A stretch of 64,000 nt of DNA from Procambarus clarkii (lineage: Eukaryota; Arthropoda; Malacostraca; Decapoda; Cambaridae): NCBI RefSeq assembly GCF_040958095.1, contig NC_091160.1:41685678-41749677 (forward strand). Reading direction: 5' to 3'. The notes beneath the pieces are model-generated. The model worked only from the letters and a program-made list of their open reading frames with translations, did no database searches and was not told the origin of the DNA. This document shows, one piece after another, positions 13,601 to 19,600 of this stretch (positions are counted from its first letter, which is position 1; each line of letters starts with the position of its first letter). The position numbers and the translations under genes were made by a program.

Positions 13601-16600
13601 TGTAATAACAGCAAAAGGAGTTTGTTGGGAGGAGCCATTTTAGTGAGGGAGTGATTGAGGCTGCCGTCTGCTGGCTACTGTGTGCCTTATCATGCAGTGG
13701 CCACTATGCTGTTTGGACACCATACCATCTTAGTTGTACAGTTATGGTGAATAAAACATGTAGATACTTGTATATAATGTGTGTATATAGTGTAATATAG
13801 TAACACCACAAACAGTATTGTTGGGGGAGAAAGGTTAGTGCGCCTGGCCTTGAACCAATGAGGAAGACAGTCGCCAGCTGACTGTGTGTGGCGACGGCTT
13901 TTATTGCCTGAACTCGTCATACCAGCTTAGTTGTACACTTATGGAGAACAAAACATGTAGATAATTATATATAGCGTGCATAAATAGTGTAATAATAACA
14001 ATAACAGAATGGTGGGAGTCGGAATGTTGATGAGTGGGTGTTGAAGGAGGGAGTGAGTCAGCCAGCAGTCTGCTGGCTGCAGTGTCGCGGACATTCATGT
14101 TGTTTTGGGCTCGCCAAACCAACTTAGTGGTTCGTTATGGTGAACATACACCTTTATGTGTAGATGGATATATACCTATCTACACATATGTAGATAGGTA
14201 TATACAACGTGTGTTTGTGTATATAGTGTAATTACAGCAAAAACACCGATTAATCGTAGAATACACAGTTTCCGTGGTGTAGTGGTAAGACACTCGCCTG
14301 GCGTTCCGCGAGCGCTATGTCATGGGTTCGTATCCTGGCCGGGGAGGATTTACTGGGCGCAATTCCTTAACTGTAGCCTCTGTTTAACGCAACAGTAAAA
14401 TGTGTACTTGGATGAAAAAACGATTCTTCGCGGCAGGGGATCGTATTCCAGGGACCTGCCCGAAATGCTACGCGTACTAGTGGCTGTACAAGAATGTAAC
14501 AACTCTTGTATATATCTCAAAAAAAAAAAAAAAAAAAAAAAAAAAAAAAAAAAAAAAAATAATATACTGTACATGTCACATATATGAGGCCCATAATTTT
14601 GATCATAGTGATGTTCCACACACTGAACTATATAAACTCCATAAATTACACACTTTTGAATAATATTACAGGAAAAAATGGAGAATAAACAAATGAGAAA
14701 CCTCAAAATAATTGTGAAACATTATATTCATGGCAACTACCGCACCACGAGGTGGCGGGGCCTAGTGACCTTGAGCGCTCCGTCGCTCAGCGCCCATAAT
14801 TTGCTCAACTTCCCAGCTCCATCGTGGTTAAAGTATGTCACATACAATATTCTTTTCTTTTTTAGTTTCCTGTGATCAGAGACTGCATTTTAACAATACA
14901 AGAAGATAAAATAATTTTTTGGAAAGAATTTATTTTCGGTTCACCACAGGTGTGTCGCATTTTAATGCAGAACAGTGCATTGGTTAAAACATTTAGTGAT
15001 TAAAGCATCCATAAATGAGAAAAAATGGCTTCAAGCAACTCAGGTCAATGTATACAAAGTTCTCCTATATCTGTGCAAGGAGCACTGTGGAGTATATCTC
15101 AATGCAGCAATAAATATGGAATAAAAAGTAAGATTTGTTTAGGGGTATATTCCAGCTATCACATTATACAGGCAAACTGATGGTTTAGTGAAAACTGCTC
15201 AATAAACAGTTTATATTATAACTCTGTGACTAAGGTAAGTTTTATATAAGTGACATAAGTGACAATGATTGTCTTAATTTGCAGGTGGCAAGAGACATTT
15301 CTTCAGCTCTTATATACCTGCACGATGAGATGCACTTACTCCACGGTGACCTGAAGAGTGCTAACATCCTCATCAAGAACAACTTTGATACAGTAAAACT
15401 TTGTGATTTTGGAGTAACTTTAAAACTAAATGAAAATGTGAGTATACATAGAACTGTAAATATTTTGTTTATATTTTCTGTGTACAGTGTGTGTATTCGC
15501 CTAGTTGTACTTGCTGGGGGTTGAGCTTCGGCTCTTTGGTCCCGCATCTCAACTGTCAATCAACTGGTGTACACATTCTTGAGCCTTTTAGGCTCTTACA
15601 CTTGAAACTGTGTATGGAGTCAGCCTCCACCACATCACATCCTAATGCATTCCATTTGTTAACTACTCTGACACTAAAAAAATTCTTACTAATGTGTCTA
15701 TGGTTCATTTGGGCACTCAATTTCCACCTGTGTCCCCTAGTGCGTGTGCTCCTTGTGTTAAATAAACTGTCTTTGTCTGCCCTATCAAATCCTTTGAGAA
15801 TCTTGTATGTGACGATCCTGTCTTCCCTAACTCTTCTGTCTTGTCTAACTCGGAAGGTGTCCCCTTCCGAGGTGGTGGCGGGGGCATTAGAGCTTGTTAC
15901 CCCTGCCGATGCGTAAGGGTCTGACCAGTGGGCCCCCCCCCTTCCTTAGGATTTTTTGGCTGCCCTGGCTTTTTCTTGTGAGGCCAGGGCTATGGGGGGA
16001 CGACTCGGCTCTGGGTTCTCAGAATGGGGTTCCTGGGGCAGGGGAGGGGTTGACTTAGGGACCTTGGGCCCCTGTTGATCCCCGCCTGGGTTTTTGTACC
16101 CTTGGGGTGGGGCTTGGTGTTGCAAGGAGAGGGGTTCTCTTCGCTCTCTCCTTGTACAAATTGGATTTGGCTGTTACCCCTCCCCAGGTTCAGTTTCGCG
16201 ATCCTCGGTCCCATCCTTCTGGAGGTTTTTGGCTTCCCGTGTCCCTTCTCATGTGGTGCGGGAGGCCCTTGCGGCTTGCCTCCTGAGTGAATAAAGTGAA
16301 CAATGAAATCCTTCCATTTGTGTAATTTTCAGTTAATGAATTTACCATATTTATAATAGATATGAACTGTAAATGTAACCTTGCTAACAAATTCCTTAGT
16401 GTGTTACCTATCATTTATGACCTCTTTTTCTTTAATTTGTGTATAGGGAGTGGCAAGTGAAGATGAATGTTATGTGGGCACGGAGTGTTGGTCAGCTCCT
16501 GAAGTCATTGCTTGTGATGCCATAACCCACAAAACTGATATGTTCTCCTTTGGCCTTGTTCTATGGTGAGTACAATGTCATGTGTATGGTGAGTACAGCA

Positions 16601-19600
16601 CCGTGTGTATGGTGAGTACAGCACCGTGTGTATGGTGAGTACAGCACCGTGTGTATGGTGAGTACAGCACCGTGTGTATGGTGAGTACAGCACCGTGTGT
16701 ATGGTGAGTACAGCACCGTGTGTATGGTGAGTACAGCATTGTGTGTATGGTGAGTACAGCACCGTGTGTATGGTGAGTACAGCACCGTGTGAATGGTGAG
16801 TACAGCACCGTGTGTATGGTGAGTACAGCACCGTGTGTATGGTGAGTACAGCATTGTGTGTATGGTGAGTACAGCACCGTGTGTATGGTGAGTACAGCAC
16901 CGTGTGTATGGTGAGTACAGCACCGTGTGTATGGTGAGTACAGCACCGTGTGTATGGTGAGTACAGCACTGTGTGTATGGTGAGCACAGCAATGTGTGTA
17001 TGGTGAGCACAGAATCGTGTGTATGGTGAGTACAGCACCGTGTGTATGGTAAGTACAGCACTGTGTGTATGGTGAGTACAGCACCGTGTGTATGGTGAGT
17101 ACAGCACCGTGTGTATGGTGAGTACAGCACCGTGTGTATGGTGAGTACAGCACCGTGTGTATGGTGAGTACAGCACCGTGTGTATGGTAAGTACAGCACT
17201 GTGTGTATGGTGAGTACAGCACCGTGTGTATGGTGAGTACAGCACCGTGTGTATGGTGAGTACAGCACCGTGTGTATGGTAAGTACAGCACTGTGTGTAT
17301 GGTGAGTACAGCACTGTGTGTATGGTGAGTACAGCACTGTGTGTATGGTGAGTACAGCACCGTGTGTATGGTGAGCACAGAATCGTGTGTATGGTGAGTA
17401 CAGCACCGTGTGTATGGTGAGTACAGCACTGTGTGTATGGTGAGTACAGCACTGTGTGTATGGTGAGTACAGCACCATGTGTATGGTGAGTACAGCACCA
17501 TGTGTATGGTGAGTACAGCACCATGTGTATGGTAATTATTCAAGTTTACTTACAAGATGAGAGATACGCTCGTGGTGTCTCAGCCTCCCAGTACAGTGTG
17601 TCATGTAACACTCAAAGACACAGTTTTTGCCTCCACCACCAACTCTGTAAAAGTGAACTATCTAACACTTTTTGGCAGCTTTGTTTCTTTAGTTTGAACC
17701 TCTGTTCTTGTGTTCTTGCAGTTACATTGTCAACAATTCTTCTTTATAAATGTTGTAAATTCCTGTTAGTCTTTTGTATGTAGTGGTCATATCACTTTTT
17801 TTTTTCCTCTATCTTCTAGCGTTAGTATATTTAATGCCTCTAACCTCTCCTTGTAGCTCTTGTTTCAAGTTCTGGGGGCCAATTACTTACATGTCTTTGC
17901 ACCTTTTCCAGCTAATTGGTGTGTTTCTTGAGATATGAACAGCATACAGCTGCTGCTTATTCCAACTTTGGTATCGCAAAAATTTTGAATAATTTCTTTA
18001 ATTTATCATGATCCATGTACTTTAAGGTGATTGTAAAGTTAGGAAGCATGACATACTCTCCTTGCACAATGTTCTTTATGAGTACACTCATAGTCTTATA
18101 AACACTTCAGGAGACAATTTTCTATCCCAAACCACCTCTAGATCTTTATCAGAATTTTGTAAAACTTTTCACATAGGTTGTGTGGAGCCTATTTTCTCAT
18201 ATTACACATTCCATAATGCAGCAACATAGTTCTTTTAACTGAAGCTTTAGATAGTTGCTTGTGTCTAGCACATGGGAAGGAAGAAAGGTACTGTAATTAT
18301 CAGAAGAACTCACTAAGCCATTGCGACTATATAGCAATTGAAAGGGATATGAGGATAAGAATGAAGGAAAGGAATGGTGCCCAACCACTTGGACAGTTGG
18401 GGATTGAATGCTGACCTGCAAAAAGCTAGGCTGTCGTTCTACCATCCAGTCCAACAAGGTTAAAATAGTAGCTTAGAAGTTAATGGATGCAGTATAGTCG
18501 TCGGGGTGGTGTTTTGTGGAAGCTTGTGAAATGATTATATTAATGAAGACTACAAGATGAAAATGAGGTTTGAATGATGGAACGTAGCAAATATACTGAA
18601 GAAACTTTAAAATCACATTAGGGAAAATATTTGAATTAGAAAGATAATGAACCATAAGTGAGATGCATGTTGAAAGAGCAGCTTAGAGGGCTTTCTGATG
18701 CATCATAGATGTAGAAAGAAACTATAAAATGCCTTGCCAATATTTAGTTCAGGAAAATCATTTCTTTACCTTACCTGGAGCATACTTTCAAAGGGTTCCA
18801 GGAGTTCTACTCGCCGAGCCTGGCCTGGGGCTAGTCTTAATGTTGAGGACAGACCAAGTTTTGTTTCTACTACACAGGGAGAACATGTCGACTGTACCGG
18901 GTACCGTATAGGGGTATACAGTATACAGTCTTCTTTCTGGGACTGATAAATAATAACATCAAGAAAACACACAGAAATCACATGAACATGATATATATAT
19001 ATATATATATCAATGAGAAAATCCACTAGGGCTGTGAGGAGGGCGCGATCCTATGACCGCGGCATTGCTAAGCCACATACTCTATCACTATTCTACTTCC
19101 ACACAAGTGTTTGTGAATCATACATAAAAACTTGGACTGGCTTCAGTAAGGCCTCCAGATATCCTGTGATTTCAGTAGAAATCCGGTTGTATGAGACTTA
19201 CAAGTCAGTGGTGGTCTAGTGGTAGAGTATGTGCATTGGCAACCTTGAGGTTACCTTGAAGTGCTTCCGGGGCTCAGCGTCTCCGCGGCCCGGTAGTCGA
19301 CCAGGCCTCCTGGTTGCTGGACTGATCAACCAGGCTGTTAGACGCGGCTGCTCGCAGCCTGACGTATGAGTCACAGCCTGGTTGATCAGGTATCCTTTGG
19401 AGGTGCTTATCCAGTTCTCTCTTGAACACTGTGAGGGGTCGGCCAGTTATGCAGGTGAACAATGCCGGGGTTGTAGGATCGCGCCCACCTCACAACACTG
19501 GTGGATTTTCTCAATAGCAAGAATCTTGTCAAGACAACTACTGCATATATTAAGATGAAAAAACTTGGAGTCAGTTTAGTGTACTTCTCTGTGGAGAGTC

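Follow-up and report, generated by a model that had tools for sequence, protein, structure and literature searches.

A 23-bp minisatellite repeats the exon 5 splice donor of a PBK gene in Procambarus clarkii

Structure of the PBK locus

The stretch of Procambarus clarkii DNA described here (C11:41685678-41749677 in a genome of 4.03 Gb; the whole 64-kb stretch is called the window, and positions within it are used below) carries the gene of PBK, a mitotic kinase, in which the 5' splice site of exon 5 is the first of a long row of similar sites created by a 23-bp tandem array. The gene model started from a tblastn search with a human PBK query, which returned seven PBK exon pieces, collinear and on one strand. 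All coding exons lie on the forward strand. Exon 1 (7477-7601, 125 nt) was placed by tblastn, a frame check and comparison with a second copy of the locus described below; exon 2 (9203-9284), exon 3 (11604-11829), exon 4 with the HGDLKSAN and DFG motifs (15285-15437), exon 5 (16447-16565, 119 nt, phase 0 to 2) and exon 6 (22243-22361) by tblastn with splice and frame checks; and exon 7 (25266-25408, stop codon TAA at 25406) by splice and frame checks. Exons 5 and 6 are separated by intron 5 (16566-22242, 5677 nt, phase 2). Gene, exon and reading frame are thus as the original prediction had placed them.

Exons 2-7 form an open frame. Exon 1, as assembled, is frame-shifted just upstream of the glycine-rich loop, its length being out of frame with exon 2; a protein read from its start codon ends after 43 aa. 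The donors of exons 2, 4, 5, and 6 score 6.9-10.2 bits, whereas that of exon 3 (AAA/GTATAA, 11827-11835) is very weak at 0.7 bits and is the same in both copies. A Pfam scan of 10 of the 73 open reading frames listed for the window gave no match.

The 3' end of exon 5 reads TATG/GTGAGTAC, with the authentic 5' splice site ATG/GTGAGT at 16563-16571. The array (16562-17527, forward strand, 42 units of 23 bp, each with ATG/GT) was delineated by Tandem Repeats Finder (TRF), unit alignment and a listing of donors. It starts at 16562, inside exon 5, and overlaps the last four exon bases; unit 1 therefore comprises four terminal exon bases and 19 intron bases, and the array spans the exon-intron border. 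At its far end a cut last unit, TATGGT (17528-17533), meets a fragment of a long interspersed nuclear element (LINE). TRF reports 16562-17533 as period 23 with 42.3 copies, 95% matches and 0% indels, which together with the unit alignment bears out the earlier claim of 42 exact 23-bp repeats without an indel at this donor. Head-to-tail arrangement, a unit within ~10-60 bp and many copies make the array a minisatellite.

The 42 full units fall into nine types, and 24 of them are identical to TATGGTGAGTACAGCACCGTGTG. Scanned with the consensus at up to three mismatches, the 64-kb window yields 41 matches, all of them units 2-42, and 0 elsewhere; on 100 shuffles the mean is 0.00. Unit 1 differs from the consensus at five positions. 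Counting the real donor and the cut last unit, there are 43 ATG/GT sites, 36 of which, the real donor included, share its 9-mer, and the remainder carry GTAAGT (three), GTGAGC (three), or GTAATT (one); by full 9-mer they are ATGGTGAGT (36), ATGGTAAGT (3), ATGGTGAGC (3), and ATGGTAATT (1). On a human donor matrix with a maximum of 12.6 bits, 42 of the 43 sites score 8.95-10.35 bits and one scores 6.28. The number of 41 alternatives given previously holds for full units and becomes 42 when the weak terminal GTAATT site is included. On the antisense strand, all three frames are open across the array (16505-17549; 344, 324, and 323 aa), because the 23-bp unit cycles through the frames without a stop.

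The frame was computed for all 42 alternative donors, and each of them leads to the same end, ...GLVLW-stop. The premature stop precedes the last exon junction by 138 nt for donor 2, and this distance grows in 23-nt steps to 1081 nt for donor 43; it was listed for 14 of the 42 donors and follows for the others from the step. Since it exceeds 50 nt in the alternatives, the corresponding mRNAs would be expected, under the 50-nt rule, to be targets of nonsense-mediated decay (NMD). To that extent the poison consequence proposed for these donors is upheld. The stop is uniform because a single TGA spans the exon border, and the 42 outcomes are one fact, not 42 independent ones.

In units 2-42, 28 of 943 alignment cells depart from the consensus, 14 of the 28 in one CpG (columns 18-19). 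Non-CpG divergence amounts to 14 of 861 cells (1.6%) and, taken with the 0% indels, points to a young, decaying array. Adjacent units are more alike than in shuffled order (156 of 5000 shuffles were equally high). None of the eight variant types in units 2-42 strikes the critical donor columns 4, 5, 6, 8, and 9, an outcome with a chance of 0.14, or 0.20 for the six non-CpG types. The bias is not significant, no claim of selection on the donors is made from it, and the meaning once read into the retention of GT in every unit is not supported.

A direct repeat, TATGGTRA, at both ends of the array was considered as its seed and discarded, as the 3' copy is the junction with the LINE fragment and a similar one is found in copy 2. 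The fragment, LINE A (17542-18216, reverse strand), is diverged and shows 70% identity over ~700 bp to part of the LINE of copy 2 described below.

The second copy of the locus

The locus has an inverted second copy (copy 2) of no less than 77 kb near C11:42.23-42.31 Mb, 0.58 Mb away. Outside listed tandem repeats, the two copies differ at 187 of 59,357 noncoding sites (0.31%), and in the PBK introns at 41 of 15,015. In the coding sequence 1 of 966 sites differs, vs 2.6 expected (P = 0.26), a comparison that does not demonstrate constraint on the PBK exons. That substitution is accompanied by one 1-base length difference, and the frame of copy 2 is complete, encoding a 321-aa kinase that matches the structure of human PBK (5J0A) with E = 4.4e-82 over residues 22-318. 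A protein search of the genome, with 139 of 142 candidates scored, placed PBK exons at these two loci and found no third PBK; the other matches, at 45% identity or less, look like other kinases. In the viral contigs, no PBK relative was found, since none of the seven stretches that fit the peptide pattern was confirmed, and there were 0 matches to the repeat pattern.

Two sampled points between the copies were examined for an inverted partner. For the non-repetitive part of 1.5 kb at 41.95 Mb, no second copy was found among the best candidates scored, and 1.5 kb at 41.85 Mb, in a tandem array, gave no listed match near the mirror place among its best candidates scored. The duplicated block therefore seems bounded. 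We lean towards reading the two copies as two haplotypes in one assembly rather than as a recent inverted duplication. The exon 1 shift of the window may be a real mutation, an allele, or an assembly error.

Behind exon 5 of copy 2 come unit 1, unit 2, TATGGT, an insertion of 2,894 bp (L009 4502-7395 = C11:42284501-42287394), the remainder of unit 3, and then another 42 units. The insertion is flanked by a target-site duplication, TGGT, read by eye, and contains a 949-aa open frame, antisense to PBK, in which a domain search identified RVT_1 (E = 2.8e-32) and Exo_endo_phos (E = 2.5e-14). A frame that joins an endonuclease to a reverse transcriptase identifies the insertion as a LINE. It does not occur in the array of the window copy. 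The LINE-fragment junction at the 3' end of the window array also ends the array in copy 2.

Units 1-38 show one and the same succession of types in the two copies, apart from the LINE that interrupts unit 3 of copy 2, so that the array should predate the split of the copies. After unit 38 the types run E, I, I, I in the window and B, a, H, E, E, I, I in copy 2. The change in unit number, from 42 in the window to 45 in copy 2 (2 + 1 split + 42), thus lies beyond unit 38. Judged from these alignments, the order of the array has been kept since the split except for the 3' end and the LINE insertion. Any conservation would have to be judged from these two copies, which both have the array but are just 0.31% diverged.

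Related arrays in the genome

Arrays with a period of 10-60 and at least four copies number 11 in 100 kb of copy 2 and seven in 84 kb on the window side, the PBK array and shared arrays being included on both sides. A 27-bp, 21-copy minisatellite, CATGGTGAGGGAGAAGGTAACAGTATA, with a donor-like ATGGTGAGG (L037, ~C11:41759014-41759585), lies downstream of the PBK array at a distance of ~56 kb. Farther along the contig, C11:41847443-41854496 is occupied by a long tandem array, the unit of which has relatives on many contigs.

Many arrays elsewhere in the genome contain GGTGAGTAC. Its tandem-triplet pattern gave 17,291 matches, two dinucleotide-preserving controls gave 11,414 and 6,005, and the reversed patterns of motif and controls gave 3,457, 7,408, and 1,945. 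Among the matches listed, 18 clusters of GGTGAGTAC were counted by hand in the first 27 Mb of C1; for the controls, whose listed matches cover all of C1 and C2 and then part of C3, the count stood at four when 31 Mb of C3 had been reached in one and at 18 after 18 Mb of C3 in the other. The denser clusters would favour a repeat-prone motif, but fifteen of the 18 listed clusters look like two dispersed families (12 + 3), and the other three in that 27-Mb span are no denser than those of the denser control. The larger group consists of three 14-bp units like GGTGAGTACAATTA that recur on C1 (e.g., L039-L041 and L043-L049) and make up 12 of the 18 clusters counted in the first 27 Mb; triplets of this type are perhaps part of a transposon.

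For other arrays of the GGTGAG type (L011-L028), 11 of the 18 upstream flanks were examined and none held a clear coding exon; the flank of L014 is 17 bases long and that of L026 is still repeat. On the reverse strand of C37, an array of 14-bp GTGAGTACAG units with ~240 copies (L020) has a sharp start, GATG/GTGAGTACAG, like the PBK array.

Comparison with known systems

The PBK array is real and unusual, and has a close human precedent in IFI6 (6-16), in which about 26 in-frame units of 12 bp lie at an exon edge; extra units there add codons and yield protein isoforms. PMC4526556 states that two downstream repeat units of IFI6 serve as donors, giving three mRNA species, and the report of the repeat by Turri et al. 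1995 is cited in PMC2572611, PMC4526556, and PMC2915984. Both genes have a tandem repeat at an exon edge with a splice donor in the units. In IFI6 the downstream units are used, whereas in PBK any use of them is a prediction from sequence. The PBK unit measures 23 bp, 36 of its 43 sites share one 9-mer, and every alternative stops at once: in place of the additional codons of IFI6, all 42 terminate after GLVLW.

A second comparison is with poison 5' splice sites of alternative splicing coupled to NMD (AS-NMD), which the PBK alternatives resemble in placing a premature stop upstream of later junctions. The known regulated cases of AS-NMD are conserved, whereas the PBK case is known from the sequence of two copies. 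A third is with the intronic minisatellites, CeRep25B among them, that neighbour alternative exons in Caenorhabditis elegans (PMC4039745) and are likewise found beside splicing decisions. The repeats named there are nearly palindromic and lie inside introns, and the term "splice donor" occurs 0 times in the paper. Among the literature matches listed, none on repeated splice donors was noticed besides work citing IFI6.

Origin and effect of the array

We consider it probable, although far from certain, that the array is a young, essentially neutral minisatellite seeded at the exon 5 donor, with most splicing at donor 1 and some leakage to the nearest few. A 23-bp stretch starting in the last four exon bases would have been duplicated, after which slippage or unequal exchange would have raised the number to 42-45 units. 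As the sequence shows, the pre-mRNA presents a series of 5' splice sites that are identical at the local level. Donor 1 would be used for most splicing because it is synthesized first and closes a 119-nt exon, and the nearest few downstream donors would leak. By the sequence, each leak sets TGA directly behind the Trp codon, and the leaked mRNA would be degraded or the kinase truncated in its C-lobe. The array would persist since such a loss is bearable. The frequency of minisatellites nearby and the lack of significant bias away from the donor columns both count for this account, and the use of extra donors in IFI6 indicates that a gene can bear donors repeated at the edge of an exon. A regulatory role of the array is, on present evidence, unproven and unlikely.

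Several observations weigh against this account. The 9-mer is alike at donor 1 and 35 other sites, donor choice and hence the dominance of donor 1 are predicted, and factors such as SRSF1 can favour intron-proximal sites; if these were chosen here, the array would be strongly poisonous. The frame shift in the assembled window copy would be in keeping with a poisoned, decaying copy. The birth of the array from the exon 5 donor is likewise presumed, the original far border not being visible because the 3' edge is the LINE junction. Finally, units starting with TATGGTGAGTAC are found in the arrays L012, L013, and L016, although these were chosen by similarity to the PBK array.

Such TATGGTGAGTAC-like units in other arrays also speak for coincidence, a doubtful but possible explanation by which, in a genome rich in minisatellites, one of the many arrays abuts the donor by chance, or an array reached the exon and supplied its donor; it concerns origin and overlaps with the mechanism just favoured. 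Leaving out the PBK array, three arrays of at least ~20 copies occur in 100 kb of copy 2 and one in 84 kb on the window side, stretches that are homologous to each other. This density suggests 0.5-1.2e5 such arrays in 4 Gb, of which, in a rough estimate with an assumed 1e5 donors, ~1-3 would be expected to adjoin a donor through chance. Behind this figure stand 1-3 arrays and the assumed donor number, and seeding by the donor explains without coincidence why the unit holds the last four coding bases of the exon, from its Leu-Trp codons.

Alternatively, the window copy might be a dying or dead duplicate in which the array adjoins the donor because the copy has ceased to matter, copy 2 being the working gene; the LINE of copy 2, located within unit 3, would have left one strong alternative donor in place and moved the rest 2.9 kb off. 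The early stop of the window frame against the complete kinase of copy 2 speaks for it, as does the failure to find a third PBK. The coding sequences are nonetheless nearly the same, their divergence is not measurably different from that of the introns, and 0.31% fits two haplotypes as well, in which case the exon 1 shift would be an allele or an assembly error. We regard this explanation as unlikely.

It is improbable that the array acts as a copy-number-dependent poison-splicing rheostat for PBK, with the ratio tuned by splicing factors. The immediate in-frame stop of all alternatives and the common 9-mer of most sites are what such a device would need, and the mitotic function of the kinase would suit it, but the units carry no signal of selection, the uniformity of the stop reduces to the TGA at the exon border, and the adjacency of array and donor is largely lost in copy 2. 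A related proposal, by which the number of units poisons most transcripts and the LINE behind unit 2 of copy 2 relieves the block, deserves equally little credence; if true, repeat length and transposon insertion would together tune the dose of PBK.

Very improbable is the proposal that the repeat RNA folds upon itself, hiding donors 2-42 and leaving donor 1 free. The array RNA is predicted to form long stems, five consensus units reaching -9.9 kcal/mol per unit vs -5.1 for unit 1 repeated, and the predicted accessibility of donor 1 (0.0064) is above that of 40 of the 42 other donors. Letter-shuffled units were, however, as stable or more in 273, 701, and 336 of 2000 trials for three kinds of shuffle, as were random letters behind a fixed donor in 169 of 2000, and donor 1 is close in accessibility to the median stretch of exon 5 (0.0064 vs 0.0051). 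The fold was therefore rejected as a special feature of the array, shuffled units folding as readily. Hardly credible, lastly, is a U1 sink in which the row of 43 U1-complementary sites, placed where a long intron begins, shields the 5.7 kb of that intron from premature polyadenylation (telescripting). Among the papers listed by a literature search combining the terms, none bore on it.

Conclusions

Donor choice among identical sites is hard to study outside designed constructs, and the PBK locus, with 36 sites of the same 9-mer at multiples of 23 nt, offers a natural test of it. From one donor to the next the junction moves by a known distance of 23 nt, so that the rule of donor choice would be readable from copy-resolved junctions. 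Copy 2, nearly identical except that its LINE leaves two full units by the exon, adds a natural experiment. The most useful part of the finding is accordingly this pair of near-identical copies of a kinase gene, with and without a LINE between the donor and the bulk of the array.

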